DNA of 64,000 nt from Onthophagus taurus (lineage: Eukaryota > Arthropoda > Insecta > Coleoptera > Scarabaeidae): positions 12,159,501-12,223,500 of the forward strand of contig NC_091971.1 of the NCBI RefSeq assembly GCF_036711975.1, written 5' to 3'. Numbering within the stretch: the first letter of the stretch is position 1; every line of letters begins with the position of its first letter. The notes under the pieces were generated by a model that searched no databases, was not told where the DNA came from, and worked only from the letters and a program-made list of their open reading frames with translations. The position numbers were made by a program, and so were the translations under genes. Of the stretch, positions 18,801 to 63,130 are shown piece by piece.

Positions 18801-21800
18801 CTCTAATACGTGAAACGGATCCTGAAATATACAAACGACCCTGCTCATTTTTGATTTATCAATTGATAATTACCTTAGAAATAACATTTGCTTGCTTAGG
18901 TCCAAAACCGTGTAACTTGTATATCTAATTGAAAATACCTACAAAATTATTTTAGACAAATATGGTGCTGATGGGTGATGAGGATGTTTTACACACGCGC
19001 TTTAGGGGTGTATGTTGGTATGCCACCAGAACCATAAAAGGTTGTACCACCATATTAGGAACAGGGCGAAATATAACAATACACATTTGGCTGTCCAGTA
19101 TTAATTTGGTTCATGAAATGCTAAAAGACCATAAACTAACCATAAGAACAGCAATGTGTCTAAACTAAATTTATAATAATCATAATCCAAGAATTTAAAT
19201 ACTTATTTCCACTAAATTTTGATCTTACTTAATCAAATAATGATAATTATCACATTATCGTGAATGATCTACTACATGTATTGTAATTCTCTCTCTCTCT
19301 GTAATGGAGCTGGAACCCAAATTGATCCTTGGCCTTCTCTAGAAATTTCTAGAGAACAAATATAGTACTATTAGTCATGTAAAAATTTCCAATGCGTTTG
19401 CTGTAAGGTTAAGCGAGGTTTCCCGAAGATTTGTAACAAGGAGAAGCTTCATCCAAACACGAATGAAAATAAAATCAAGTAAGGATACTTCTTTATGACG
19501 TAAACCAACGTTTATCAAATAGGAAGTGGAATAACTTGCATCTCGTCTTTTAAAACTAAATTATTAACAAAATTACTTTATTTTGGATCAGTGATATTTA
19601 ATAAAGATTAAATTTCGCCATTTTACACAAATTTATAGAAAATAATAGAAGAGAATTTATTTTTTACAGAATATTTAGTAGTCGAAGATATGTTGGGGTG
19701 GCTTCTTGTTAAAAAAGGATATCATCGCAGTTTGTGTGATAATTTTTAGAAGAAAAAGAATAAGCAACTGGAAAAAGTTGTTTCTCCTGGGACTTTCTTT
19801 ATATTAATGATGGAATGGACAGTGATTTTGCGAAAAGCCGGATTCGGCATCCCCTTCGGCTACATATCCGACATATCTATCCGGCCATAATGGCTATAAT
19901 TTCTGGTCCATTTCTAAAGTGATACCCTACATTACCACATTATTGCGATATTTGAATTAAAATGAAATTAATAAAAAATCTGATTAGATATGTCAACTTA
20001 TTTAGATCCAAGAAACCAAATGAACTTTTTTGATGCTGATTTAACTAACGAAGCAACTCTAAAAAGAGGATACTTTAATTAATAGTTATTAATTATAATT
20101 ATAATTGGCGATATTTCCACAAGGATCCTTCAAGAAATGAATTTTATAGCGTATTTTGAAAATTATCGATGAAAATTGTAACATCGAAAATTTTATCAAA
20201 ACTTCAAATATTGTTTTCTCAAAAACTAAAAGTTATTTTTCAAAACGGGTTGGTTTATTGGAAAGAGGACACTCTTATTAACACTTTGGGAAAATTTTAA
20301 ACTCATATTCCAAGAAATGGATTTTATACGTATTTTTAAAACTTAATCGGCGAAAATTCGATATTCGAAAAAATTGTCGATCATTTCAAATATTTATTTC
20401 TCAAGAACTAAAAGTGATTTTTCAAAACGACTTGTTGCATTAAAAAGAGGATACTTTAATTAATAATTGGTGATATTTCCACAAGGATCCTTCAAGAAAT
20501 TAATTTTATAGCGAATTTTGAAAATTATCGATGAAAATTGCAACATCGAAAATTTTATCAAAACTTCAAATATTGTTTTCTCAAAAACTAAAAGTTATTT
20601 TTCAAAACGGGTTGGTTCATTGGAAAGAGGACACCCTTATTAACACTTCGGGAAAATTTTAAACTCATATTCCAAGAAATGGATTTTATACGAATTTTTA
20701 AAACTTAATCGGCGAAAATTGCATAATTCGTAAAAATAGTCGATCAATTCAAAAATTTATTTCTCAAAAACTAAAAACGATTTTTCAAAACGGCTTGTTG
20801 CATTAAAAAGAGGATACTTTAATTAATAATTGGTGATATTTCCACAAGGATCCTTCAAGAAATTAATTTTATAGCGAATTTTGAAAATTATCGATGAAAA
20901 TTGCAATATCGAAAATTTTATCAAAACTTCAAATATTGTTTTCTCAAAACCTAAAAGCTATTTTTCAAAATGGGTTGGTTCGTTGGTAAGAGGACACTCT
21001 TATTAACACTTTGGGAAAATTTTAAACTCATATTCCAAGAAATGGATTTTATACGAATTTTTAAAACTTAATCGGCGAAAATTTAAAAATTCGAAAAAAT
21101 TGTCGATCATTTCAAAAATTAAATACTACTATTACTAAGTAATAGGTTATTATTATTTGGTAACTATTACTACTATCACTACTACTTTATATGTTCCGAA
21201 AAAAAGTTTTATATGTACTTTAAAAATGTTGTAAAATATCATAAAAAAGTACTAAAGATCTCACAATTTCTACTATTTATAATTTTGAGGTTTTGAAGTA
21301 TGATTAAGACTTAACTGCAAAACCATTTAACTTATTTAATCAATTACTTTTGATGATAGCCTATTTAACAAAAAAAATTGAGATATTTCATAAACGTGGT
21401 ACACAACCATTAAATTACGTTATCGAATCGAACGATTTCGATCACGTAGAGAAGCCGGGTACGTGCAAGTTCTTAATTGAAAAGCGTTAGGCCAAAACAT
21501 GGTTAGAGACCGAAATTCAGGAACGACAATTTCCGGCGTCCGAAATTGCTCTCTCTCGTTTAGGCAAACGCGATAATTGCTTTAGGTACGCGGCGCACTT
21601 CCCGGTTTTCGTCGGTTCTTCGTAAATATTTGTTGCGCACCGCGAGATTTCGAAAGAGTTTGTAACCACGGTGAGGCTCTTTTCGACGATAAAACAGGGG
21701 TACCCTTAATTTGGATCCTTAATAAAATCGCTTTCTGTTCCCCCTTTTCTTTTTCCTACCTCTGTTGGTAGTAATTAAATTTTCTCAAGGAGGCTCCTTA

Positions 21801-24800
21801 ACACTTCATTTGTAGCGAGTAAATTTATTACTTAATTAAGTTTGAAATGTATAAATAAGTTTATCTATGACTGCTTGGATAAGTCATTATTACCACACTC
21901 ATTTGAGTTACGTAATGAAGTTCATTACCGCACTAGTTTCATTACGTAACGCATTTTTAACCCAATCAGAACAGACTTAATTTATTGAAACGAGTAACAA
22001 TACAAAAGAACAAGTGCTACCTATTTAAAGAAAAACAATCCCTCTGTCCCACATTATAGTATGCATTTCCCTAAAATTTATGGAATAAGGAAAGTTATCG
22101 ATAACGATTATCGATAACGTTGTACCAGGCATTAGATTCAAATTGATTGGTTCCAAATTTATGATAATGGATCAAGATAATATAATTCATAAGCAATACC
22201 ACCATATTTATCTCAATTTCTTATGCCAAAGCCAGGAAATCCCACAATATCAAAATTGACATTAAATTCTGTTATGATTAAAAAACGGAAAGTGATAGAG
22301 AAAAACGCTTTCCATAAAAATTAATGATAAAGAATCAAGATAACATAATCCATCGTCAATGCCACCATAGATATCATCATTTCTTAGGTTCAAGCCAGGA
22401 ATTCTCAAAATATCAAAATTGACAATCATCTGCGTTAAATTCTGTTATAAGTAGAAAATTAAAGGTGATAGAGAATAACGTTTCCCATAAAAATGAAAGA
22501 TAATGAGTCAAGATAACATAACACAGTACAACACATGATTTCGGGACTCAATTCTGATAATTGTTTATGAAAGTAGCCCCAAAAAGAAGAACTTCTGCAT
22601 CATTCGTATGGTCATGGTACATCAAATACTTGCGGAGGTTTGTTGGTAGAGTTCTAAAATTGTGCAGTTTGAAGATGAACGCACCGAAGATGAAGATGAC
22701 ACTGAAATTTGTGGACACACTGAACAAAACATGCCCTTGAATCTTATGTGTAACTCGGATGATGATGCAGACTCAGAACATGAATATGAACAACCTACTA
22801 AGAAAATAAGGTCATCAGAACCACAAGCGTCAACTTCAACGAGGATGGATAGTGACACTAATTGAAAATGTTCTAAATTTTGTTTCATATAACATATACA
22901 TAACATATAAAAATCTTCATACATTTATTTATAACTGCGAAACTGTTCCTTTTTAAGGTTTTGGATTTTTTATGAATTAAAAATATAAAATTTAAATTTT
23001 TTAGGCAAAAAATAGTTTTTTTCTTCATACATTTATTTATAACTGCGAAACTGTTGCTTATGTAGCGAAACGTTGTATGAACAGATTAAAGGAATTGTAA
23101 TTCTTAATTTTTTTAAATTTGTTTCAGCTTATTCGGACTAGTGGTTCTCCAGTTATGACAAACAAAAGAGCCTAAAACGTGACAAATTCCCCTATACGAT
23201 ACTTACTAACTTCAAATTAATTTTTAAATTATTATTTGATGTACCATGACCATACGAATGATGCAGAAGTTCTTCTTTTTGACGCTACTTTCATAAACAA
23301 TTATCAGAATTGAGTCCCGAATCAATCACCTGAAAAATGTTGTACTGTGTAATCTATAGTCAATGCTACCATAGAAATCACCATTTCTTAGGTTCAAGCC
23401 AGGAATTGTCAAAATATCAAAATTGGCAATCATCTGCGTTAAATTCTGTTATAATTAGAAAATTAAAGGTGATAGAGAAAAACGTTTCCCATAAAAATCA
23501 ATGATAATGAATTAAGATAACATAATCCATAGTCAATGCCACCATAGATATCATTATTTCTTAGGCTGACGCCAGGAATTCTCAAAATATCAAAATTGAC
23601 AATCATCTGCGCTAAATTTTGTTATAAGTAGAAAATTAAAGGTGACAGAGAAAAACGTTTCCCATAAAAATTAATGATAATGAATCAAGATAACATAATC
23701 CATAGTCAATGCCACCATAGATATCACCATTTCTTAGGTTGAAGCCAGGAATTCTCAAAATTGACAATCATCTGCGTTAAATTCTGTTATAATTAGAAAA
23801 TTAAAGGTGATGGAGAAAAACGTTTCCCATAAAAATTAATGATAATGAATTAAGATAACATAATCCATAGTCAATGCCACCATAGATATCATCATTTTTT
23901 AGGTTCAAGCCAGGAATTCTCAAAATATCAAAATTGACAATCAGCTGCGTTAAATTCTGTTATAAGTAGAAAATTAAAGGTGATAGAGAAAAACGTTTCC
24001 CATAAAAATTAATGATAATGAGTCAAGATAACATAATCCATAGTCAATGCCACCATAGATATCATCATTTCTTAGATTGAAACCAGGAATTCTCAAAATA
24101 TCAAAACTGACAATCATCTGCGTTAAATTCTGTTATAAGTAGAAAATTAAAGATGATACAGAAAAACGTTTCCCATAAAAATTAATGATAATGAATCAAG
24201 ATAACATAATCCATAGTCAATGCCACCATAGATATCATCATTTCTTAGGTCAAGCCAGGAATTCTCAAAATATCAAAATTGGCAATCATCTACGTTAAAT
24301 TCTGTTATAATTAGAAAATTAAAGGTGATAGAGAAAAACGTTTCCCATAAAGATTAATGATAATGAATCAAGATAACATAATCCATAGCCAATGCCACCA
24401 TAGATATCATCATTTCTTTGATTGAAGCCAGGAATTCTCAAAATATCAAAATTGACAATCATCTGCGTTAAATTCTGTTATAAGTAGAAAATTAAAGGTG
24501 ATAGAGAATAACGTTTCCCATAAAAATGAATGATAATGAGTCAAGATAACATAATCTATAGCCAATGCCACCATAGATATCACCATTTCTTAGGTTCAAG
24601 CCAGGAATTCTAAAAATATCAAAATTGACAATCATCTGCATTAAATTCTGTTATAAGTAGAAAACTAAAGGTGATAGAAAAAAATGTTTCCCATAAAAAT
24701 TAATGATAATGAATCAAGACAACATAATCCATAGTCAATGCCACCATAGATATCATCGTTTCTTAGATTGAAGCTAGGAATTCTCCAAATATTAAAATTG

Positions 24801-27800
24801 ACAATCATTTACGTTAAATTCTGTTATAAGTAGAAACTTAAAGGTGATAGAGAAAAACGTTTCCCATAAAAATGAATGATAATGAGTCAAGATAACATAA
24901 TCCATAGTCAATACCACCATAGATATCATCATTTCTTAGGTTCAACCCAGGAATTCTCAAAATATCAAAATTGACAATCATCTGCGTTAAATTCTGTTAT
25001 AATTAGAAAATTAAAGGTGATAGAGAATAACGTTTCCCATAAAAATTAATGATAATGAGTCAAGATAACATAATCCATAGTCAATGCCACGATAGATATC
25101 ACCATTTCTTAGGTTCAAGCCAGGAATTCTCAAAATATCAAAATTGACAATTATCTGCGTTAAATTCTGTTATAACTAGAAAATTAAAGGTGATAGAGAA
25201 AAACGTTTCCCATAAAAATTAATAGTAATGAATCAAGATAACATAATCCATAGTCAATGCCACCATAGATATAATCATTTCTTAGGTTCAAGCCAGGAAT
25301 TCTCAAAATATCAAAATTGACAATCATCTGCATTAAATTCTGTTATAAGTTGAAAACTAAAGGTGATAGAGAAAAACGTTTCTCATAAAAATTAATAATA
25401 ATTAATCAATACAACATAATCTATAGTCAATGCCACCATAGATATCATCATTTCTTAGGTTCAAGCCAGGAATTCTCAAAATATCAAAATTGACAATCAT
25501 CTGCATTAAATTCTGTTATAAGTTGAAAACTAAAGGTGATAGAGAAAAACGTTTCTCATAAAAATTAATAATAATTAATCAATACAACATAATCTATAGT
25601 CAATGCCACCATAGATATCATCATTTCTTAGATTGAAGCCAGGAATTCTCAAAATATCAAAATTGAGAATCATCTGCGTTAAATTTTGTTATAATTCAAA
25701 AAATAAAGGTAATAGAGAAAAACGTTTCCCATAAAAATTAATGATAATGAGTCAAGATAACATAATCTATAGTCAATGCCACCATAGATATCACAATTTC
25801 TTAGGAATTCTCAAAATATCAAAATTGACAATCATCTGCGTTAAATTCTGTTATAAGTTGAAAACTAAAGATGATAGAGAAAAACGTTTCTCATAAAAAT
25901 TAATGATAATTAATCAAGATAACATAATCTATAGTCAATGCCACCATAGACATCACCATTTCTTAGGTTCAAGCCAGGAATTCCCAAAATATCAAAATTG
26001 ACAATCATATACGTTAAGTTCTGTTATAATTAGAAAATTAAAGGTGATGGAGAAAAACGTTTCCCATAAAAATTAATAATAATGAATCAAGATAACATAA
26101 TCCATAGTCAATGCCACCATAGATATTACCATTTCTTAGGTTCAAGCCAGGAATTCTCAAAATATCAAAATTGACAATGATCTATGTTAATTCTGTTATA
26201 AGAAGAAAATTAAAGGTGATTGAGAAAAACGTTTCCCATAAAGATTAATGATAATGAGTCAAGATAACATAATCCATAGTCAATGCCACCATAGATATCA
26301 CCATTTCTTAGGTTCAAGCCAGGAATTCCCAAAATATCAAAATTGACAATCATCTGCGTTAAATTCTATTATAAGTTGAAAACTAAAGGTGATAGAGAAA
26401 AACGTTTCTCATAAAAATTAATGATAATTAATCAAGATAACGTAATCTATAGTCAATGCCATCATAGATATTACCATTTCTTAGGTTCAAGCCATGAATT
26501 CCCAAAATATCAAAATTGATAATCATCTGCGTTAAATTCTGTTATAAGCAGAAAATTAAAGGTGATAGAGAAAAACGTTTCCCATAAAAATTAATGATAA
26601 TGAATCAAGATAACATAATCCATAGTCCATGCCACCATAGATATCATCATTTCTTAGGTTCAAGCCATGAATTCTCAAAATATCAAAATTGACAATCATC
26701 TGCGTTAAATTTTGTTATAAGTAGAAAATTAAAGGTGATAGTGAATCAAGATATTATAATTCATAACCAATGCTACCATAGATATCAATAGTTAAGTAGA
26801 TAGCAATTCTTAATAAAATTGCTCTCAGACGCATAGATATCGAGAAAGATATGAAAATTCATGAATAAAGAAAAGTTTCGCCGTGAAGAGCGTTTACATT
26901 GAACCAGCTGAATTGTGTTTAAATGTGTAAAATTTTCATTAAAGTATGTTTAAATTAAGTTACAAATTGAATTACTAATTTTACAAAAACAATCAAGCAG
27001 TTTCCACAGTTTTATATACCATAATTTGAGACAAATTGTAAAGAGAAATGTATACCATAATTTGAAATAGAGGGAGTACTGTAATTGTTATGTTTTTACA
27101 TTTCAAAACACTTATTCCAGATGAGTAAACGTGTTATTGTAACTGACATTAATTCAAAATCGTCAACAATAATTTCAAAATATTCTTATAAATGTTAATA
27201 ATTACATACTCGTAATACATAATTACAGTACTCGTGTGATTACACGACTAAGATGCAATTCTCCACACTTGTAATATAAGTAACTATTATTTAGGGTTTT
27301 TCCTAAAAAGATATTTTGATATGAAAAACCTCCCTTAGGAGAAAAATAAAGCGTACATCACGTAAAAGACTGTCGTAAAACGTAGGAGAACGCATTTCTC
27401 TCGTCATCTACGAGAGGACAAGGTAGAAGGAAAGTTTCATAAATTAAACCGCTCAGCGCGGATAATAAAGTGTCAGAAACCGCTTCGGTTAAATTAGCGA
27501 CATTCATTTTAGAGAGATGGGGAGCTCGAGTCAATAACAGGATCCTCTTCGGTTCGATTCACCTCCTCTTCGATTCACCGGTCCGAGAGAGGCTCATGTA
27601 ATAAAGTCCGATTGGATCAGCTAAAAAGAAGTCACGAGATCGGAGGCCTTGATGAGGTTTCGACGATGAGGCGGCGGTTATCTGACGCAGATTGGAAACT
27701 GCTATATTTCGGGGCATGATCGACATCAAGCGGTATATAGATACTTCATTACTGTAAACATGAGGTTCTTTGTATGATGATATTGAGGAATTTGTATTGT

Positions 27801-44785: not shown

Positions 44786-44879
44786 AGAATTTTAATAGAT
44801 TAGATTATTTGGTAATAAAAAACAAATATATAATTAATCTTTTTTGACAAACTTGTATTATAATGATTTCTAGTACTAT
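44786..44879. terminator. 3' end region of spermidine synthase
   Basis: A short AT-rich segment with AATAAA at the stop and a TAATAAAAA further on (about 44812). The poly(A) site is not directly visible. Confidence 0.4.
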
Positions 44880-47800
44880 TTTAAAAGTTTATTTCTCAAG
44901 AACTAAAAGTGATTTTTCAAAAGGGCTTTTTGCATTAAAAAGAGGATACTTTAATTAATAATTGGTGATATTTCCACAAAGAACCTTCAAGAAATTAATT
45001 TTATAGCGAATTTTGAAAGTTATCGATGAAAATTGCTACATCGAAAATTTTATCAAAACTTTAAATATTGTTTTCTCAAAAAGTAAAAGTTATTTTTCAA
45101 AACGGGTTGGTTCATTGGAAAGAGGGCACTTTCATTAACATTTTGGGAAATTTTCATACTCATATTCCAAGAAATCGATTTTTTTAAACTTAATCGGCGA
45201 AAATTGTAAAATTCGAAAAAATTGTCAATCACTTCAAAAATTTTTTTCTCAAAAACTAAAAGCGATTTTTCAAAACGGCTTGTTGCATTAAAAAGAGGAT
45301 ACTTTAATTAATAATTGGTGATACTTCCACAAGAATCCTTCAAGAAATTAATTTTATAGCGAATTTTGAAAGTTATCGATGAAAATTGCAACATCGAAAA
45401 TTTTTTCAAAACTTTAAATATTGTTTTCTCAAAAAGTAAAAGTTATTTTTCAAAACGGGTTGGTTCATTGGAAAGAAGACACTTTTATTAACATTTTGGG
45501 AAATTTTCATACTCATATTCCAAAAACTGGATTTTATACGAATTTTTAAAACTTAATCGGCGAAATTGCAAAATTCGAAAAAATTGTCGATTATTTCAAA
45601 AATTTATTCCTCAAGATCTAAATTTGATTTTTCAAAACGGCTTTTTGCATTAAAAAGAGCGTACTTTAATTAATAATTGGTGATATTTCCACAAAGAACC
45701 TTCAAGAAATTAATTTTATAGCGAATTTTGAATGTTGTCGATGAAAATTGCAACATTAAAAATTTTATCAAAACTTCAAATATTGTTTTCTCAAAAACTA
45801 AAAGTTATTTTTCAAAACGGGTTGGTTCATTGGAAAGAGGGCACTTTTATTAACATTTTGGGAAATTTTCATACTCATATTCCAAGAAATCGATTTTTTT
45901 AAACTTAATCGGCGAAAATTGTAAAATTCGAAAAAATTGTCGATCACTTCAAAAATTTTTTTCTCAAAAACTAAAAGTGATTTCTCAAAACGGCTCGTTG
46001 CATTAAAAAGAGGATATTTTAATTAATAATTGGTGATATTTCCAAAAGGATCCTACAAGAAATTAATTTTATAGCGAATTTTGAAAATTATCGATGAAAA
46101 TTGCAACATCGAAAATTTTATCAAAACTTCAAATATTGTTTTCTCAAAAACTAAAAGTTATTTTTCAAAACGGGTTGGTTCATTGGAAAGAAGACACTTT
46201 TATTAACACTTTGGGAAATTTTCATACTCATATTCCAAAAACTGGATTTTATACGAATTTTTAAAACTTAATCGGCGAAATTGTAAAATTCGAAAAAATT
46301 GTCGATCATTTCAAAAATTTATTTCTCAAGAACTAAAAGTGATTTCTCAAAACGGCTCGTTGCATTAAAAAGAGGATACTTTAATTAATAATTGGTGATA
46401 TTTCCAAAAGGATCCTACAAGAAATTAATTTTATAGCGAATTTTTAAAATTATCGATGAAAATTGCAACATCGAAAATTTTATCAAAACTTCAAATATTG
46501 GTTTTTCAAAAACTAAAAGTTATTTTTCAAAACGTGTTGGTTCATTGGAAAGAAGACACTTTTATTAACACTTTGGGAAATTTTCAAACTCATATTCGAA
46601 GAAATGGATTTTATACGAATTTTTAAAACTTAATTGGTGAAAATTGCAAATTTGAAAAAATTGTCGATCATTACAAAAATTTATTTCTCAAGAACTAAAA
46701 GCGATTTTTTCAAAACGGCTCGTTGCATTAAAAAGAGGATACTTTAATTAATAATTGGTGATATTTCCACAAGGTTCCTTCAAGAAATTAATTTTATAGT
46801 GAATTTTGAATGTTATCGATTAAAATTGCAACATCGAAAATTTTATCAAAACTTCAAATATTGTTTTCTCAAAAACTAAAAGTTATTTTTCAAAACGGGT
46901 TGGTTCATTGGAAAGAAGACACTTTTATTAACACTTTGGTAAATTTTCATACTGATATTCCAAAAACTGGATTTTATACGAATTTTTAAAACTTAACTGG
47001 CGAAATTGTAAAATTCGAAAAAATTGTCGATTATTTCAAAAATTTATTTCTCAAGATCTAAAAGTGATTTTTCAAAACGGCTTGTTGCACTAAAAAGAGG
47101 ATACTTTAATTAATAATTGGTGATATTTCCACAAAGAACCTTCAAGAAATTAATTTTATAGCGAATTTTGAAAGTTGTCGATGAAAATTGCAACATTGAA
47201 ACTTTTATCAAAACTTCAAATATTGTTTTCTCAAAAACTAAAAGTTATTTTTCAAAACGGGTTGGTTCATTGGACAGAGGACACTTTTATTAACACTTTT
47301 GGTAAATTTTCATACTCATATTCCAAGAAATCGATTTTATACGAATTTTTTAAACTTAGTCGGCGAAAATAGCAAAATTCTTAAAAATTGTGGATCAATT
47401 CAAAAATTTATTTCTCAAAAACTAAAAATGATTTCTCAAAACGGCTCGATGCATTAAAAAGAGGATACTTTCGTTAATAATTGGTGATATTTCCACAAGG
47501 ATCCTTCAAGAAATCAATTTTATAGCGAATTTTGAAAATAATCGATGAAAATTGCAACATCGAAAATTTTATCAAAACTTCAAATATTGTTTTCTCAAAA
47601 ACTAAAAGTTATTTTTCAAAACGGGTTGGTTCATTGGAAAGTAGACACCTTTATTAACACTTTGGGAAATTTTCATACTCATATTCCAAAAACTGGATTT
47701 TATACGAATTTTTAAAACTTAATCGGCGAAATTGAAAATTCGAAAAAATTGTCGATCATTTCAAAAATTTATTTCTCAAGAACTAAAAGTAATTTTTCAA

Positions 47801-48295
47801 AACGGCTTTTTGCATTAAAAAGAGGATACTTTAATTAATGATTGGTGATATTTTCACAAGGATCCTTCAAGAAATTAATTTTATAGTGAATTTAGAAAGT
47901 TATCGATGAAAATTGCAACATTGAAAATTTTATCAAAACTTCAAATATTGTTTTCTCAAAAACTAAAAGTTATTTTTCAAAACGGTTTGGTTTATTAGAA
48001 AGAGGACACTTTTATTAACATTTTGGGAAATTTTCATACTCATATTCCAAGAAATCGATTTTATACGGATTTTTAAAGCTTAATCGGCGAAAATTGCAAA
48101 ATTCGAAAAAATTGTCGATCAATTCAAAAATTTATTTCTCAAGAACTAAAAGTGATTTTTCAAATTGGCTTGTTGTATTAAAAAGAGGATACTTTAATTA
48201 ATAATTGGTGATATTTCCACAAGGATCCTTCAAGAAATTAATTTTATAGCGAATTTTGAAACTTATCGATGAAAATTGCAACATCGAAAATTGGA
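44880..48295. repeat. Dimeric ~353-bp satellite, array B
   Basis: About nine to ten tandem dimeric units (TTAATTAATAATTGG at 44951, 45304 and onward) of the same family as arrays A, C and D. The array ends in the middle of a half-unit at CATCGAAAATTGG, followed by TACTAAGTAATAGGTT and an hAT-like terminus. Confidence 0.95.
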
Positions 48296-48381
48296 GTACT
48301 AAGTAATAGGTTTTTAATATCCGGCCGGATTTTAATAAATAGCCGGATACCGGATAATTGCCGGATATCCGTTCCACCACT
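48296..48381 (-). mobile_element. hAT-like terminal inverted repeat
   Basis: Read from the right on minus, the sequence begins TAGTGGTGGAACGGATATCC and continues with repeated CCGG-containing motifs (ATTATCCGG, TATCCGGC). The CAGTGGTGG-like start with subterminal ATCCGG repeats is characteristic of insect hAT elements. The matching left end was not found, so this is either a truncated element or the end of one that contains satellite array B. Confidence 0.6.
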
Positions 48382-48855
48382 AATAATTTCTATTATTTTC
48401 AGGAATTTTTTATATTTGATTTATTATTATTAACCATAAATATATCTACAAATCTAACGTTTTTGAATAAATTGCTTTGGGCGTTAACTTTCAATTGCAC
48501 TACATTCCTTGTACACACTCAAGGTAAATGAAACTTTTCATCGTGGAAGAAATAACAGCCGCTCGTTTCGCGTTGTGGTTCAAACTTTATCCGTATGTGT
48601 AGTTTTGCACCTTCTTTGCACATTCATCACCAGAACCGTAGGGATGGGATCTTTTTTCCATCTTCACCAACCGCCTTTTTCTTTTTCAACGCCCAAGTTT
48701 TTATCGCCTGTTTAGGTTTTTATTGTCCGATGGTTGTAAAGTTAAACTTTACGCTATGAAAAGTGAGTTATATATAACTTCAAGCTTTTTGCGCAATAGA
48801 AAAAGTCGATAAGAAGTGATTCTATTGGAATCCAACAAAAAAATTTCTTTATTAA
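48382..48855. other. Unassigned DNA between hAT end and P450
   Basis: No gene is supported. The part next to 48855 is presumably the P450 3' UTR, with a minus-strand AATAAA (TTTATT on plus near 48848). A frame at 48509-48715 has no recognisable domain. Confidence 0.35.
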
Positions 48856-51800
48856 TTACATATATAATTCATACATTCTTTTTTGAAAAATAACAGGAAT
48901 TCCATCAATGCTTCTAAACATTATATCAGCTTTTAATTTAACATCATGGTCTTTAACAGAACAAATTTCAAATTCTCTCAGGATTTTTGCTAAAAATAAT
49001 TTCATCGAAGCATACCCTATATTTTTACCTAAAAAAAGTGTTATCAAAAATTGTTTTTTTTTTTTTAATAAAGTAGAAATCAATTACCCGGACAATATTT
49101 TGCTCCATATCCGAAGGATAAGTGTGCTTTTTTCGCATTTTCCGTCATATTTTCCGGTAAAAACCGATCCGGGTTAAAAACGTTTGCGTTCTCAAAGTTT
49201 TCATTCGATTTAAAAATTTCTGCCAGATTAAAAATGACTTGGGTATCTTTCGGAATTATCATATCTTTAATTTCAACGTCTTTCGTTAATAATCGATCAA
49301 CGAATGGTGATGGGAAAAATAAGCGTAACGCTTCGTTGACAACACAATGTAAGTACGTCATATTATTTAAATCGTTTAATGTTATTTCTCGTGATGACTG
49401 AGGTCCAACAATCGAAAGAATTTCTTCTAAAATCTTTTCTTGTAGTTCGGGACGTTTTGCTAATTCATACAAAGTAAGTGCTAATGGAACAACTGAGGTT
49501 TCGAAACCCTTTAAAAAATGGATTAAATTATCCATTAGCAAGCTTTGTTTAAGTCAATTTAAATAAAACAAAATTTTCCTCTTTCTTGCTATTTATTTTA
49601 TTATGCTTCTAAATCGATTTCGAGGAAACAATCCTCATCTTCAGTAGAATCTTATATAAAAAAAATTTTTTAAAAACAATATGAAATAAATCCAAAGTTT
49701 CTATACATTTACTTACTGTCGGTTTAGTTGAAAAAATATATTAATCATCAAATTTAACACATCCTCCAAATTTAACTTCATCTTTTTTATCCAAACTTGA
49801 AAATTTCTTACTTTAATAATTGAACAAATATAATAGAATATCAAATTCAAAACCAAAAGTTAAAATACACTTAAAACAAAAACCAAAATAATATAAAACA
49901 AAACACGCGTTTACATTTGACAAAAGATACGAAAAATTACTGAAGGTCAAAAGGAACAAGCAAGAAGGAAATTTTTTTTATATAAGATTCTACTGAAGAT
50001 GAGGATTGTTTCCTCGAAATCGATTTAGAAGCATAATAAAATAAATAGCAAGAAAGAGGAAAATTTTGTTTTATTTAAATTGACCTTTAAAAAAGTTTAA
50101 TGAAATATTTAATATACAATGTTTTTAGAAATATAATGAAATTCCCCTAATTCGAACTTCTATATTTCGAATATTATGTCGATTTTTACTAACTCGAATT
50201 TTTTGTAGCTCGAATTACACTACTATGGAATAACTTCACCTTTATTAAGTTCTATATGTCGAATTTTCCAAAGAATAAACTATTTGAATCCCTTCTGTAA
50301 GGCACCTCTTTTTATTCCAGTGATTTTATGGTTCGAACAAGCGCTGAATAAAAGCTTAACCTAACACCAGAAGGTTACTAGACTAAGAACAACAAAGTTA
50401 GTTCGTGTAGTGTTAGTTCTAGTTTTACACTTGCACTGTTACTAGAACTAACACTGTATCTAGAACTAGAATCATTCAAATTTAGCCATCTTGAGATACG
50501 CACGGCTAAACCCAAATGTTTCTAGTTTTAGGTCTAATATTTGTTCTAGTGACAGTGCAAGTGTAAAACTAGAACTAACACTATACCTAGAACATTTGGG
50601 TTTAGCCAGATATATCTTATACAGATCATCTTCTAATCATATCTTGGTTATATGCTTAGCTTATGCTATTCCTAACGATTTCGAACCTTTGCTATTCATG
50701 CGTTTTTTATATCGTATTTTTAATACAAAAAGGCGTTTTGAAAAATCACTTTTATTTCTTGAGCAATAAATTTTTGAAATAATCGACAATTTATTCGAAA
50801 TTGGAATTTTCGCCGATTAAGTTTTAAAAATTCGTATAAAATCCATTTCTGGGAATATGAGTATGAAAATATCCCAAAGTGTTAATAAAAGTGCCCTCTT
50901 TCCAATAAACCAACACGTTTTGAAAAATAACTTTTAGTTTTTGAGAAAACAATATTTGAAGTTTTGATAAAATTTTCAATGTACCAATTTTCATCGATAA
51001 CTTTCAAAATTTGCAATAAAATTCATTTCTTGAAGAAACCTTGTGGAAATATCACCAATTATTAATTAAAGTATCCTCTTTTTCGACAATTTATTCCAAT
51101 TTTGCAATTTTCGTCAATTAAGTTTTAAAAATTCGTATAAAATCCATGTCTTGGAATATGAGTGTAAGAATTTTGGAAAGTGTTAATAAAAGTGTCCTCT
51201 TTCCAATGAACCAAACAGTTTTGAAAAATCACTTTTAGATCTTGAGAAATAAATTTTTGAAATAATCGAAAATTTTTTCGAATTTTACAATTTTCGCCGA
51301 TTAAGCTTTAAAAATTCGTATAAAATCGATTTCTTGGAATATGAGTATGAAAATTCCCCAAAGTGTTAATAAAAGTGTCCTCTTCTCAATGAACCAACAC
51401 GTTTTGAAAAATAACTTTTAGTTTTTGAGAAAACAATATTTGAAGTTTTGATAAAATTTTCGACGTTGCAATTTTGATCAATAATTTTAAAAATTTGCTG
51501 TAAAATTAATTTCTTGAAGGATCCTTCTGGAAATATTACCAATTATGAATTAAAATATCCTCTTCTTAATGCAAAAAGCCGTTTTGAAAAATCACTTTTA
51601 GTTCTTGAGAAATAAATTTTTGAAATAATCGACAATTTTTTCGAATTTTGCAATTTTCGCCAATTAAGTTTTAAAAATTCGTATAAAATCCATATCTTGA
51701 AGTATGAGTATGAAAATTCCCCAAAATTGTAATAAAAGTGTCCTCTTTCCAATGAATCAACCCGTTTTGACAATTTTTTCGAATTTTGCAATTTTCGCCA

Positions 51801-54468
51801 ATTCAGTTTTAAAAATTCGTATAAAATCCATATCTTGGAATATGAGTGTGAGAATTTCCCAAAATGTTAATAAAAGTGTCCTCTTTTCAATGAACCAACA
51901 CGTTTTGAAAAATAACTTTTAGTTTTTGAGAAAACAATATTTGAAGTTTTGATAAAATTTTCGAGGTTTCAATTCTCATTTATAATTTTCAAAATTCGCT
52001 ATAAAATTAATTTCTTGAAGGATCTTTGTGGAAATATCACCAATTATTAACTAAAGTATCCTCTTTTTAATGCAAGAAGCCGTTTTGAAAAATCACTCTT
52101 AGATCTTGAGAAATAAATTTTTGAAATAATTGTCAATTTTTTCGAATTTTGCAATTTTCGCCAATTAAGTTTTAAAAATTCGTATAAAATCCATATCTTG
52201 GAATATGAGTGTGAGAATTTTCCAAAGTGTTAATAAAAGTGTCCTCTTTCCAATGAACCAAACAGTTTTGAAAAATAACTTTTAGTTTTTGAGAAAACAA
52301 TATTTGAAGTTTTCATAAAATTTTCGATGTTGCAATTTTCATCGATAACTTGCAAAATTCGCTATAAAATTTATTTCATGAAGCATTCTTGTGGAAATAT
52401 CACCAATTATTAATTAAAGTATTCTCTTTCTAATGCAAAAGGGCGTTTTGAAAAATCACTTTTAGTTCTTGAGGAATAAATTTTTGAAATAATCGTTTAG
52501 TCGTGCGTCTGAAGACCAAGAGTGCCATTAAATAATTAGCAAAAATTTATCGTTTAAATTTTACTAAATAAAAGTAAAAAACGCATGAATACTTGGTTCG
52601 AAACCGTTAGGAATAGCATAAGCTAGGCCTATAACCAAGATATGATTAGAAGATTATCTGTATAAGATATATCTTTATAAATTGGAATACTGCGGAGTAC
52701 GAGCTGTGGCATTAGACCTTTTGAAGTTAGCTTAGCAAATAAGTACTTATTATTGGTAATAAATGGTCAAGGATTTGGAAGTCAAGGACTTGGACCTCTA
52801 CATTTAGAGCACACATCCAGAGTTTACAATAGCTTTGGAAAAATAACTAAAGAATTAGTAGCCTGGAAGTATTCCTGCTTCTGCGTCTCCTATAATACTG
52901 AGGTTCAGCTATCTTTTCATCGCCTTGAAAGTATTCCTACAGGTCTTTTTATATATGTTTTGCCATCCCTTGTATTTATATCTACAATTAGAAACATTCG
53001 GGTTTAGCCGTCTTATGAGATGTACGGCTAAATCCAAATGTTTCTAGTTCTATATCTAATATTAGTACTAGTGACAGTGCAAGTATAAAACTAGAACTAA
53101 CACTATACCTAGAACTAGAAACATTCGGGTTTAGCCGCACGTCTCTAAAGACGGCTAAACCCGAATGATTCTAGTTCTAGGTATAGTGTTAGTTCGACAT
53201 AGTAACACTGCTAGTGTAAAACTAGAACTAACACTAGACCTAGAACTAGAAGCATTTGGGTTTAGCCGCATGTCTCTAAAGACGGCTAAACCCGAATGAT
53301 TCTAGTTCTAGGTATAGTGTTAGTTCTAGTTTTAATTGTTATTCAGCGCTAGATTGTTGTATATTTTAATTGAAGTAGTTGAAAGTTTAAATATACATAT
53401 TAGAAAAGTATATTGCTAATTTTTTTTTCTTTAGAGCTGAAATTCAACTATTTTTTGTCTAACTCCCTTAGTGATTCGAGTTAGGGGAACTTCACTATAT
53501 TTTGACTTACACCTCCAATTATTGTATTCATATTATCAACAATTTTATCATCTGACATTCCACTATCTATAAAAGCATATATTAAATTGCACTTCTCCCT
53601 TTGATCGATTGGAATTTTTTTATGGCGCTCCAATAAATTTTCCATAATTTCAATAACATTTTCGGCGTATCCCAAAGATAAGCGATAATTTTTAGTAAAT
53701 TTGTATAAAATCCCCATCATACTTGAATTCATTTTTTCTAATAACAAATTAAAATATTTTGTTCTATTCTCCATGTAGTCGTTAATTTCTTTTTGTGTGA
53801 TTTTTATTTGAGAATCCATCATGGATTCTAAAAAAAAATAAATAAATTAAAACAAAATTTAGATTACATTTTCTAAGAATATATTAACCAATTATGATTT
53901 CGGCGTGAATTCTTTCTAAATTGGATTCCAATTCAATCGGTTTTTCTAAATTCTCATAAATCATTTCCATGAATTCGTTATATTTTTCGTTATAAACAAT
54001 CAAACGATTCGATATATAATCTCGTGTGAATGTTTTAATCACAATTTGTTTATCGTTGTGCCAATTTTCTCTTGATTTCGTTGTAGCTAATCCTTCTCTT
54101 AACAAAGATTCAGCTTCAGAAAATGCGGGGGTATAAAAATTGTCGTTGGATTTATAAATCTTTTGAATAAACTCCATATCTGTGGTCATTATAATTGGCG
54201 GCATCGGTTTAATCCATATTTTAACAATTGGGCCGTATTTTGTATTTAGTGATTGAAAAAATTTTAAAAAACCTTAAATTAAAAATAATGATGTGTTAAT
54301 AATAAATTTGAGGTTTTAGTTACCTTCGGATGAATTTCTGTAGTGGTTAATAATATCCTTGAATGATGGACCTGGAATTTTTTCGATACTCTTAAACTTA
54401 TTAACATTATTTTTATATCGAAATATTAAATAAGCAAATGGAAAAATTAAAAGAATTGGAACCAACAT
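48856..54468 (-). CDS. Cytochrome P450, CYP4-clan type
   Basis: Five exons on minus: 54468-54324, 54272-53889, 53827-53511, 49508-49088 and 49028-48856. All introns are GT-AG (51, 61, 4002 and 59 bp), and the frame of 479 residues is open. It is a microsomal heme monooxygenase. There is an N-terminal membrane anchor (about 2-16), then IPGP (31-34). A Trp of the C-helix follows, and the ESMMDSQ segment matches the ExxMG region of CYP4 proteins. The I-helix oxygen-binding motif GGFETS (282-287) is split by the 4-kb intron. Also visible are ExxR (341-344), FNPDRF (393-398) and the heme loop FGYGAKYCPG (414-423, Cys421). The heme loop has Lys419 where Arg is usual. The substrate is unknown; insect CYP4-clan enzymes act on fatty acids, odorants, hormones or xenobiotics. 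The gene is duplicated as a pseudogene at 59.5-60.6 kb. Confidence 0.9.
49553..50084. mobile_element. 532-bp MITE in the P450 intron
   Basis: Terminal inverted repeats of about 118 bp begin GTCAATTTAAATAAAAC at both ends and include TTCGAGGAAACAATCCTCAT. It starts 44 bp upstream of the exon 4 acceptor. Flanks read TTTAA at the left and CTTTAA at the right, so the target duplication is ambiguous. Confidence 0.85.
50134..53498. mobile_element. 3.4-kb nested inverted-repeat element enclosing a satellite
   Basis: The outer ends match as inverted repeats: TGAAATTCCCCTAATTCGAA on the left, and the complement of TTCGAGTTAGGGGAACTTCA on the right, with TATA beside both. Further inward are paired AGCGCTGAATAA motifs (50342; complement at 53340-53351). 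Next come palindromic CTAGAACTA-rich blocks (50393-50600, 52985-53330), then a third inverted pair (about 50605-50715 and 52570-52685). The core is satellite array C. The termini and apparent TA flank suggest a Tc1/pogo-like element (inference). Confidence 0.7.
50720..52498. repeat. Dimeric satellite, array C (inverted)
   Basis: About five units of the same dimeric satellite in the opposite orientation to arrays A, B and D, with several partial units and internal deletions. It lies entirely between the inner inverted repeats of the 3.4-kb element, inside a P450 intron. Confidence 0.9.
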
Positions 54469-57185: not shown

Positions 57186-57189
57186 CTAG

Positions 57190-59355
57190 TGATGAAAAAA
57201 CTAAAAGTTATTTTTCAAATCGTGTTGGTTTATTCAAAAGAGGACACTTTTATTAGACCTGGAAGTGATTTTTCAAAACGGCTTCTTACATTAAAATGAG
57301 GATACTTTAATTCATAATTGGGGATATTTCCGCAAGGATCCCTCAAGAAATTAATTTTATAGCGAATTTTGAAAATTATCGATGAAAATTGCAACATCGA
57401 AAATTTTATCAAAACTTCAAATATTGTTTTCTCAAAAACTAAAAGTTATTTTTCAAAACGGGTTGGTTCATTGGAAAGAGGACACTTTTATTAACACTTT
57501 GGGAAATTTTCATACTCATATTAAAAGAACTGGATTTTATACGAATTTTTAAAAACTTAATCGGCGAAATTGCAAAATTCGAAAAAATTATCGATCATTT
57601 CAAAAATTTATTTCTCAAGAACTAAAAGTGATTTTTCAAAATGGCTTGTTGTATTAAAAAGAGGATACTTTAATTAATAATTGGTGATATTTCCACAAGG
57701 ATCCTTCAAGAAATTAATTTTATAGCGAATTTTGAAAGTTATCGATGAAAATTGCAACATCGAAAATTTTATCAAAACTTTTCTCAAAAACTAAATGTTA
57801 TTTTTCAAAACGGGTTGGTTCATTGAAAAGAAGACACTTTTATTAACATTTTGGGAAATTTTCATACTCATATTCCAAGAAATCGATTTTATACGAATTT
57901 TTAAAACTTAATCTGCGAAAATTGCAAAATTCGAAAAAATTATCGATCATTTCAAAAATTTATTTCTCAAGAACTAAAAGTGATTTTTCAAAATGGCTTG
58001 TTGTATTAAAAAGAGGATACTTTAATTAATAATTGGTGATATTTCCACAAGGATCCTTCAAGAAATTAATTTTATAGCGAATTTTGAAAGTTATCGATGA
58101 AAATTGCAACATCGAAAATTTTATCAAAACTTTTCTCAAAAACTAAAAGTTATTTTTCAAAACGTGTTGGTTCATTGGAAAGCGGACACTATTATTAACA
58201 TTTTAGGAAATTTTCATATTTATATTCCAAGAAATCGATTTTATACGAATTTTTAAAAACTTAATCGGCGAAATTGCAAAATTCGAAAAAATTATCGATC
58301 ATTTCAAAAATTTATTTCTCAAGAACTAAAAGTGATTTTTCAAAATGGCTTGTTGTATTAAAAAGAGGATACTTTAATTAATAATTGGTGATATTTCCAC
58401 AAGGATCCTTCAAGAAATTAATTTTATAGCGAATTTTGAAAGTTATCGATGAAAATTGCAACATCGAAAATTTTATCAAAACTTTTCTCAAAAACTAAAT
58501 GTTATTTTTCAAAACGTGTTGGTTCATTGGAAAGAGGACGCTTTTATTAACATTTTAGGAAATTTTCATATTTATATTCCAAGAAATCGATTTTATACGA
58601 ATTTTTAAAACTTAATCGGCGAAAATTGTAAAATTCGAAAAAATTATCGATCATTTCAAAAATTTATTTCTCAAGAACTAAAAGTGATTTTTCAAAATGG
58701 CTTGTTGTATTAAAAAGAGGATACTTTAATTAATAATTGGTGATATTTCCACAAGAATCCTTCAAGAAATTAATTTTATAGCGAATTTTGAAAGTTATCG
58801 ATGAAAATTGCAACATCGAAAATTTTATCAATTCTTTTCTCAAAAACTAAATGTTATTTTTCAAAACGTGTTGGTTCATTGGAAAGAGGACGCTTTTATT
58901 AACATTTTAGGAAATTTTCATATTTATATTCCAAGAAATCGATTTTATACGAATTTTTAAATCTTAATCGGCGAAAATTGCAAAATTCGAAAAAATTATC
59001 GATCATTTCAAAAATTTATTTCTCAAGAACTAAAAGTGATTTTTCAAAACGGCTTTTTGCATTAAAAAGAGGATACTTTAATTAATAATTGGTGATATTT
59101 CCACAAGGATCCTTCAAGAAATTAATTTTATAGCGAATTTTGAAAGTTATCGATGAGAATTGTAACATCGAAAATTTTATCAAAACTTCAAATATTGTTT
59201 TCTCAAAAACTAAAAGTTATTTTTCAAAACGGGTTTGTTCATTGGAAAGAGGACACTTCTATTAACACTTTGGGAAATTTTCATACTCATATTCCAAGAA
59301 CTGGATTTTATACGAATTTTTAAAGCTTAATCGGCGAAAATTGGAAAATTCGAAA
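57190..59355. repeat. Dimeric ~352-bp satellite, array D
   Basis: About six units, spaced 352 bp in the centre (TTGGTG at 57681, 58033, 58385, 58737). Four successive units share an 11-bp deletion between ATCAAAACTT and TTCTCAAAAAC relative to arrays A and B, so this is a locally amplified subfamily. The array separates the P450 gene from its pseudogene. Confidence 0.95.
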
Positions 59356-59511
59356 AAGTTTAAAATCATAGAAAATTTAGCAAAATAAAGATTATTATTA
59401 CTCGGTGTGAATAAGAATATTATTTTAACAAAAATAAAAATAATCTTAGATATCCATGTTATTTATGTAAGTATTTATGTATTTAAAATTTACACTAAAA
59501 ATTCATACTTA

Positions 59512-61039: not shown

Positions 61040-63130
61040 AAGAACTAAAAATCATAACAACCATGTTTGTGGGGAATAAGAAATTATTTATGGCACATTG
61101 AATACTTATAAAATCAGCGTTAAAATGTTCTTTGTTTCATCTTTAAATCTTAATTCGTTTTTGAGAAACAACTTTTTAAATTCTATTCGTTAAATCGGCA
61201 ATTCAACCATGCAGAGTTGAGTTTAAAAAATCATAACAACCATGTTTGTGGGAAATAAGAAATTATTTATGGCACATTGAATACTCATAAAATTAGCTTT
61301 AAAATGTTCTTTGTTTCATCTTTATATCTCAATTCGTTTTTGAGATATAGCTTTTTAAATTCTACTCGTTAAATCGACAATTCAACCATGCAGAGTTGAG
61401 TTTAAAAAATCATAACAACCATGTTTGTGGGAAATAAGAAATTATTTGTGGAACATTTCATACTCATAACATTAGCTTTAAAATGTTCTTTATTTCATCA
61501 ATATATCTCAATTCTTTCTTGAGATACAACCTTTTAAATTTTATTTGTAAAATCGACAATAATACAACATGCCGATTTGGGTTTAAAAAATTATAACAAC
61601 CATATTTGTAGGAAATAAGAAATTATTTATGGCACATTGAATACTCATAAAATTAGCTTTAAAATGTTTTTTGTTTCATCTTTATATCTCAATTCGTTCT
61701 TGAGATACAACTTTTTAAATTCTATTCGTTAAATCTACAATAATCAAACATGCAGAGTTGGGTCTAAAAAATCATAACAACCATGTTTATGGGAACAAAG
61801 AAATTATTTATGGCACATCGAATACTCATAAAATTAGCTGTAAAATGTTCTTTGTTTCATCTTTATATCCCAATTCGTTCTTGAGATACAACTTTTTAAA
61901 TTCTTTTCGTCAAATCTATAATAATCAAACATGCAGAGTTGGGTTTAAAAAATCATAACAACCATGTTTATGGGAACAAAGAAATTATTTATGGCACAAT
62001 GAATACTCATAAAATTAGCTTTAAAATGCTCTTTGTTTCATCTTTATATCTTAATTCGTTTTTGAGATACAACTTTTTAAATTCTATTCGTCAAATCGAC
62101 AATTCAACCATGCAGAGTTGGGTTTAAAATATCATAACAACCATGTTTATGGGAACAAAGAAATTATTTATGGCACACTGAATACTCATAAAATTAGCTT
62201 TAAAATGTTTTTTGTTTCATCTTTATATCTCAATTCGTGGTTGAGATACAACTTTTTAAATTCTTTTCGTCAAATCTATAATAATCAAACATGCAGAGTT
62301 GGGTTTAAAAAATCATAACAACCATGTTTGTGGGAAATAAGAAATTATTTATAGCACATTGCATACTCATAAAATTAGCTTTAAAATGTTCTTTCTTTCA
62401 TCTTTATATCTCAATTCATTCTTGAGATACAACTGTATAAATTTTAATCGTCAAATCTACAATAATCAAATATGCAGAGTTGGGTTTAGAAAATCATAAT
62501 AACTTTGTTGTTGGGAAATAAAAAATTATTTATGGCACACTGAATACTCATAAAATTAGCTTTAAAATGTTTTTTGTTTCATCTTTATATCTCAATTCGT
62601 TCTTGATATATCACTTTTTAAATTCTATTCATCAAAGCGACAATTCAACCATGCAGAGTTGGGTTTAAAAAATCATAACAACCATGTTTATGGGAACAAA
62701 GAAATTATTTATGGCACAATGAATACTCATAAAATTAGCTTTAAAATGTTCTTTGTTTCATCTTTATATCTTAATTCGTTTTTGATATACAACTTTTTAA
62801 ATTCTACTCGTTAAATCTACAATAATCAACATGCAGAGTTGGGTTTAAAATTTCATAATAACTATGTTTATGGGAACAAAGAAATTATTTATGGCACAAT
62901 GAATAGTCATAAAATTAGCTTTAAAATGTTCTTTGTTTCATCTTTATATCTTAATTCGTTTTTGAGTTTTGTTTTTTGAATTCTACTCGTTAAATCTACA
63001 TAATCAACATGCAGAGTTGGGTTTAAAATTTCAAAAAATCATAACAACCATGTTGTTGGGAAATAAGAAATTATTTATGGCACATTGAATACTCATAAAA
63101 TTAACTGTAAAATGTTCTTTGTTTCATTTA
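61040..63130. repeat. 179-bp satellite array
   Basis: About 12 tandem copies with a period of about 179 bp (CATGCAGAG at 61208 and 61387), marked by AATCATAACAACCATGTTT, GAAATTATTTATGGCACA and TTTCATCTTTATATCTCAAT. Repeated short open frames of 60-66 codons (for example 61758, 61939, 62118) recur once per unit and are artefacts. Sequence differs from the other two satellites. Confidence 0.95.

Follow-up and report, generated by a model that had tools for sequence, protein, structure and literature searches.

Sequence analysis of a 363-bp satellite as the likely interior of a non-autonomous hAT transposon family in the beetle Onthophagus taurus

Introduction

Satellites riding on MITEs are already known. 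The nearest described system is miDNA4 of Xenopus (Scalvenzi and Pollet 2014, as presented in the reviews PMC12628747 and PMC9659126), a MITE that contains a satellite as one monomer or as an array of variable length, and whose authors are said in the same reviews to propose the capture of a pre-existing tandem repeat. The reviews also present Xstir/Xmix of Xenopus (Hikosaka and Kawahara 2004), in which tandem repeats are located on a MITE. In Crassostrea gigas, dispersed satellite-like arrays are described as the central repeats of non-autonomous elements, the Cg_HINE Helentrons (PMC7492417); in Tribolium castaneum, a beetle satellite was reported in the TCAST transposon-like elements, which have inverted repeats and target duplications (PMC3411249); and Tetris of Drosophila virilis is reported as a DNA transposon linked to a satellite (PMC4079207).

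In this study, we analyzed a 363-bp satellite of Onthophagus taurus which, on the sequence evidence, forms the internal part of the elements of a non-autonomous hAT family. The mechanism is the same as in the known satellite-carrying elements, with miDNA4 as the nearest, while the carrier differs: according to the reviews miDNA4 belongs to Tc1/mariner, whereas 8-bp duplications and a hAT transposase relative were found here, and the order of events, unlike in the accounts of miDNA4, can be read from a satellite-free lineage and the transposase relative. The repeats of Xstir/Xmix are thought in these accounts to be derived from the MITE's own internal sequence, unlike the capture proposed here. 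Cg_HINE elements belong to the Helentron superfamily and are described with 13 repeat clusters in 11 elements, in contrast to one satellite in one hAT family; the TCAST elements are described as 34 mariner-like elements near genes, with 3-bp duplications and with satellite pieces in long inverted repeats, and the accessible account (PMC3411249) describes no internal array of variable length as observed here; and Tetris is described as a foldback element with the repeats in its terminal repeats, in contrast to an internal array in a hAT element. A literature search over titles and the starts of abstracts named no hAT-borne satellite, a result which says little about subscription journals; the word 'hAT' is absent from the text of PMC12628747 and occurs in PMC9659126 in two reference titles only, and four exact sequences of the satellite and the termini gave no match in the literature searched. 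What sets the present case apart is the hAT carrier, and the succession of events is recorded rather clearly.

Materials and Methods

The window is the whole stretch of DNA analyzed, 64,000 nucleotides in length (C6:12159501-12223500), and the genome searched comprised 291 Mb in 33 contigs. Loci were collected by searches with the end of array B (30 loci), the 16-mer TACTAAGTAATAGGTT (30 loci), and the transposase remnant (10 loci), and references for the 5' part and the 3' part were mapped, along with the satellite, onto the collected loci. The ends and duplications of the two elements in the window, A and B, were placed by eye.

Results

Anatomy of the family

The satellite unit, as seen in array B of the window, is 363 bp long and consists of two halves of ~180 bp which are ~70% alike; as a tandem array of one unit, it agrees in this respect with a classical satellite. 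The mapping showed a common plan for the family, in which the satellite lies between a 271-bp 5' part and a 339-bp 3' part and is separated from each by a single base C. In the 5' part, the terminus TAGTGATGGAACGG is accompanied by CCGG-rich repeats and by codons for STYLDPRYKMNFFDADLTNEAT, the satellite is entered at TAAAAAGAGGATACTT and left at TTAATTAATAAT, and the 3' part is composed of ESDNSDSSVS..., NKVVFNEKSPIGVELDYYLQCPTPKRDTNSCEWWSTK, a stop, CCGG-rich repeats, and the terminus CCGTTCCACCACTA, with transposase remnants present in both parts. Many copies are shortened or have other breakpoints (e.g., L015, L021, L022, and L031). In L037, L048, and L061, the 3' part is additionally interrupted, by an insertion or a break, at about position 97. 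The canonical left junction reads ...GAAGCAACTC joined to TAAAAAGAGGATACTT..., and the canonical right junction ...TTAATTAATAATC joined to GAAAGTGATAAC...; allowing up to 3 mismatches, 627 left and 702 right junctions were counted in the genome, in comparison to 0 for the reversed controls.

In the hAT superfamily, terminal inverted repeats are short and follow the YAGNG pattern, which TAGTGATGGAACGG / CCGTTCCACCACTA of the present family fit. The decayed hAT gene L096 has 86% to 90% DNA identity to the coding remnants of the element and contains the hAT dimerisation domain (Pfam PF05699, E 4e-14), while the Pfam search of the element's own fragments gave no match above the cut-off. No intact parental transposase was found, the longest open frame among the matches listed being 171 aa (150 of 2250 candidates scored). 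The family has no transposase gene and a high copy number, as expected for MITEs, but not their small and uniform size, since the 18 copies compared range from 0.34 to 4.5 kb, mainly due to array length.

A 627-aa hAT frame with a BED finger and a dimerisation domain was also found in L097 (C11:3120900-3124100), and frames of equal score and length are present at three other places. L097 was rejected as the parent, as its DNA matches the remnants in a single 32-bp stretch at 81% identity and no convincing termini were seen. The 627-aa frames are distant relatives of the remnants, and may represent a hAT family of a different lineage that was active recently.

Elements and arrays in the window

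Element A is bordered by two identical 8-bp target site duplications (CTTTATAT, 19797-19804 on the left and 21185-21192 on the right). Its 5' part, comprising the terminus and a transposase remnant which reads MSTYLDPRNQMNFFDADLTNEAT, is located at 19805-20058 (+ strand) and is 87% identical to the 271-bp 5' part; it precedes array A (20060-21120, +), about 3 satellite units in the same orientation as array B, confirming an earlier statement that this array directly follows a hAT transposase fragment. The element is completed at 21121-21184 (+) by a degraded 3' end, which contains TACTAAGTAATAGGTT (at 21133) and whose limit was placed by eye. On the left of element B, the target site duplication (ATGATTTC, 44863-44870), also placed by eye, agrees with the right copy (ATAATTTC, 48383-48390) at 7/8 positions, and it is followed by a possible remainder of the 5' terminus (TAGT; 44871-44879, +), weak on its own, the rest being deleted. 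Array B, which is the satellite of element B, covers 44880-48292 (+) with about 9.5 units of 362-363 bp, and the 3' end at 48292-48382 (+), with the stop-codon region, CCGG-rich repeats, and the terminus CCACCACTA, is 97% identical to positions 249-339 of the 3' part. The canonical right junction is absent from both elements, and the canonical left junction is also absent from element B.

The preliminary description had argued from TACTAAGTAATAGGTT as a junction shared by arrays A and B. At array B, the satellite ends at 48292, and TACTAAGTAATAGGTT at 48297-48312 and the inward TAGTGGTGGAACGG terminus at 48369-48382 follow in the order described; the 16-mer is also present beyond array A, at 21133-21148. 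The satellite, however, stops 12 bp before TACTAAGTAATAGGTT in array A and 4 bp before it in array B, and TACTAAGTAATAGGTT as a common breakpoint was rejected, as the breakpoints of the two arrays differ. It is transposon 3'-end sequence around the stop codon of the transposase remnant (...CEWWSTK, stop), and not a junction. Allowing up to 2 mismatches, TACTAAGTAATAGGTT was found twice in the window against 0.09 expected (1/100 shuffles reaching this count), and with up to 1 mismatch it was found 516 times in the genome in comparison to 27 for the reversed control; the terminus alone was weaker in the window, with 1 match against 0.09 expected and 8/100 shuffles reaching this count. As an argument, a shared junction at TACTAAGTAATAGGTT was thus less strong than the conclusion drawn from it, which is supported.

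Array C (50710-52495, - strand) consists of the same 363-bp satellite, with no hAT ends seen, and has on its two flanks inverted copies of a ~100-bp sequence (50608-50709 and 52575-52674) which are 91% alike. We considered array C as a second mobile carrier and rejected it, because a search of the genome with its junction and flank returned 2 candidates, both being the array C locus. Since junction and flank were found at this one locus only, array C probably represents a local inverted duplication whose arms enclose the satellite. Array D (57187-59360, +), again of the 363-bp satellite and with no 3' part seen, adjoins on its left edge TAGTGATGA, as at the hAT 5' terminus (TAGTGATGG), with 9 bases alike. 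Other repeats in the window are a second satellite with a 173-bp period (about 20 units at 23350-26745, in the region 22330-26745), near the left end of which an element with inverted ends was noted by eye at about 22530-22630 and 23235-23345; a third satellite with a 181-bp period (11.5 units, 61047-63127); and degenerate 21-bp tandem repeats (like AAGACTAGATACTGCTAGCA) at two separate places, 1656-4341 and 18337-18620.

Target duplications and an empty site

Outside the window, 18 distinct copies had two recognisable termini; 15 of these copies were satellite-bearing and three were satellite-free or stub. For the satellite-bearing copies, the duplications matched at 8/8 positions in eight (L021, L026, L030, L049, L051, L060, L072, and L079), at 7/8 in four (L002, L025, L031, and L050), at 6/8 in two (L052 and L055), and at 3/8 in one, L004, despite both of its termini; the satellite-free or stub copies scored 8/8 (L010 and L036) and 4/8 (L056). 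When elements A (8/8) and B (7/8) were included, the 17 satellite-bearing copies comprised nine with 8/8, five with 7/8, two with 6/8, and one with 3/8, as the 8-bp duplication characteristic of hAT elements would have it. The paired termini with 8-bp duplications which the preliminary description had proposed to look for were thus found at 7/8 or 8/8 in 14 of 17 copies, in comparison to a control of unmatched left and right ends, where 7/8 was reached in 1/306 and the mean was 3.1. In L002, about 3.7 kb of a total of 4.5 kb is satellite, and therefore a long array can lie between target duplications. In L026, the 5' part is reduced to its initial 47 bp, and the duplication is 8/8; if the loss preceded the insertion, these 47 bp sufficed.

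The 18 copies were also compared with the collected loci and the window for empty sites, and a counterpart was obtained for L049 alone, the only other match being that of L072 to itself. The counterpart of L049 is located in the window at 53090-53146 (+) and aligns over 57 bp with 94.7% identity and no gap, reaching 24 bp past the joint; the same landing repeat without insertion is found in L024 (an alignment of 165 bp at 88% identity with one gap, extending 15 bp beyond the joint). The insertion site of L049 lies in another, widespread repeat family. This repeat, with inverted copies (CTAGAACTAGAAACATTCGGGTTTAGCC...) at 50405-50610 and 52979-53334 of the window, also matches L012, L024, L037, L048, L049, L056, and L058.

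Satellite content of the family

The first 30 exact TACTAAGTAATAGGTT places in genome order (L039-L068) had satellite upstream in the same orientation in 26 cases, with short stretches in L046 (40 bp) and L044 (105 bp), and with a break between the satellite and the rest of the 3' part in L048 and L061. The other four were L039 and L056, which have both parts and are satellite-free, and L066 and L068, which are 3' fragments. From the satellite side, the first 100 exact satellite anchors on C1, covering one 5-Mb stretch (1.43-6.28 Mb), were joined into 24 clusters when same-strand neighbours were at most 4 kb apart (28 clusters at 3.3 kb). The results showed hAT sequence at one or both edges in 22 of the 24, 15 of which were determined from sequence reading and 7 from the coordinates of adjoining hAT matches or junctions; in the remaining two (near 1.43 and 1.63 Mb), the arrays extend beyond the stretches read, and no hAT part was seen therein. 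The 8 best arrays (L001-L008, where L001 is array B and L008 is also part of the C1 census) had hAT sequence at an edge in 7 cases, counting the short 5' terminus in L007, while L006 had none at the one edge reached.

Genome-wide, 7,817 satellite anchors correspond to ~2.8 Mb or 1% of the genome and to 11-12 anchors per canonical junction, in comparison to a mean of ~4.8 units in 15 of 16 paired junctions. Much of the satellite must therefore belong to arrays longer than these, to copies whose junctions have decayed, or to sequence that is not part of the family. The arrays read are dispersed and up to about 6 kb long. It is conceivable, although we hold it at somewhat below even odds, that nearly all of the satellite in the genome was dispersed through one capture by one hAT MITE, with those arrays that lie outside the family, array C among them, representing escapes from its elements. 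If so, the transposon would be the seed of new satellite arrays rather than a passenger in old ones.

Array length

Complete arrays between both canonical junctions (n=18) measured 382 to 2188 bp, and after subtraction of a 28-bp stub, 10 of the 18 deviated by no more than 0.1 unit from a whole number. Junction pairing, based on coordinates only (67 exact left junctions among 100 listed against 100 right junctions listed), yielded 16 pairs spaced by up to 15 kb, and for 12 pairs the length deviated by at most 0.12 unit from a whole number (0, 1, 3, 4, 6, and 7); a pair of 27.45 units may be two copies joined. Zero-unit stubs were found in L036, C2:8430395, and C11:19912518, and the longest array read, in L005, is about 5.7 kb or near 16 units. 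Judging from these lengths, variation by whole 363-bp units is apparent for many arrays.

Order of events

At the position of the satellite, L096 has coding sequence and no satellite, and 36 bp of this sequence are missing from the family; the satellite therefore sits at the scar of an internal deletion. In L039 and L056 the scar is closed without satellite, in L039 in frame (EAT-ESDNS). Both copies share the L096 base at site 250 of the 5' part and at sites 120 and 146 of the 3' part, where the derived base was found in 25/27, 60/60, and 46/47 satellite-bearing copies, respectively; these three diagnostic sites were picked after the fact, and the comparison rests on two satellite-free copies, of which L039 has no recognised 3' terminus. 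At the sites separating the satellite-bearing majority from L096, the outgroup base was present at 3/37 in L039 and 6/37 in L056, and at 0 or 1 in ten satellite-bearing rows. The ancestral bases common to L039/L056 and L096 point to one capture before the burst, and the likely order, as read from these bases, is a satellite-free MITE, then one satellite capture, then a burst. A tree of 21 copies was star-like, with copies 2.4% to 6.9% from the consensus and little internal support, and L039 and L056 were grouped at 0.87.

Two kinds of evidence bear on whether arrays are inherited with their copies. A base C after TTGG was found in 10/20 junction-adjacent monomers at the left junction in comparison to 10/258 others (Fisher p 4e-8), a marker which suggests that arrays moved together with their edges. 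Monomer identity was 0.929 within the same array, 0.908 between different arrays, and 0.891 for the first monomers of different arrays (10 first monomers); in this whole-monomer comparison, first monomers were not more alike across arrays, which speaks against block inheritance of arrays.

Discussion

The scenario we propose is that a hAT element reduced to about 0.6 kb by internal deletion would have acquired the 363-bp satellite once, at the deletion scar in its transposase remnant, perhaps through template switching or during gap repair. Several hundred copies, each with its array on board, would then have been produced from this element by a hAT transposase acting in trans, and the arrays would have expanded and contracted largely by whole 363-bp units, through unequal exchange or slippage, as the copies decayed. 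Taken as a whole, i.e., a hAT-family interior, a single capture, and a burst in trans, we give this reading a probability of roughly 0.85; the value is not put higher because the reading includes the single capture, because L039 is without a recognised 3' terminus, and because the monomer comparison argues against block inheritance.

A very different reading would be that hAT elements inserted by chance into or beside existing arrays, or that satellite was repeatedly inserted into hAT copies, with no joint mobility. Satellite without hAT ends, as in array C, and the deviating breakpoints of L015, L021, L022, and L031 would agree with it, but we regard it as extremely improbable, since in the tested copies the satellite is enclosed by the termini, and these in turn by the duplications, since satellite and 3' part are co-oriented wherever both were mapped, and since near-identical junctions recur 627 and 702 times, where the preliminary description had expected random ones if its own proposal were wrong. 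That proposal, in which a mobile hAT derivative contains or once contained the satellite and carried it along as it spread, is borne out by the paired termini, the duplications, the one empty site, and these junctions.

Another possibility is that the satellite was not captured but was born inside the element from the element's own sequence, which would explain that satellite-free and satellite-bearing copies differ exactly at the satellite and that zero-unit stubs exist (L036, C2:8430395, and C11:19912518). We consider such an origin unlikely: the similarity of the 363-bp unit to L096 DNA was not beyond chance (best E 0.29), the unit, being a dimer of ~180-bp halves ~70% alike, would be older than its present form, and the L036 stub has the derived base at the first diagnostic site and so looks like a contraction. 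Slightly less probable still is that the satellite was present since the start of the family and that L039 and L056 are later losses, even though the closed junction is rare, with 2 exact genome matches (L039 and C7:3962455, the latter by match position), and the two copies group with a support of only 0.87. Against later loss stand the three ancestral bases which both copies share with L096, the coding sequence without satellite that L096 has at that place, and the intact reading frame EAT-ESDNS across the closed junction of L039.

How satellites are dispersed through chromosome arms is an old question, and here one genome provides the vehicle, a likely order of events, and the change of array length in unit steps. 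As each insertion is a separate starting point, the hundreds of copies are replicates, and the family is a good system for measuring the expansion and contraction of tandem arrays.
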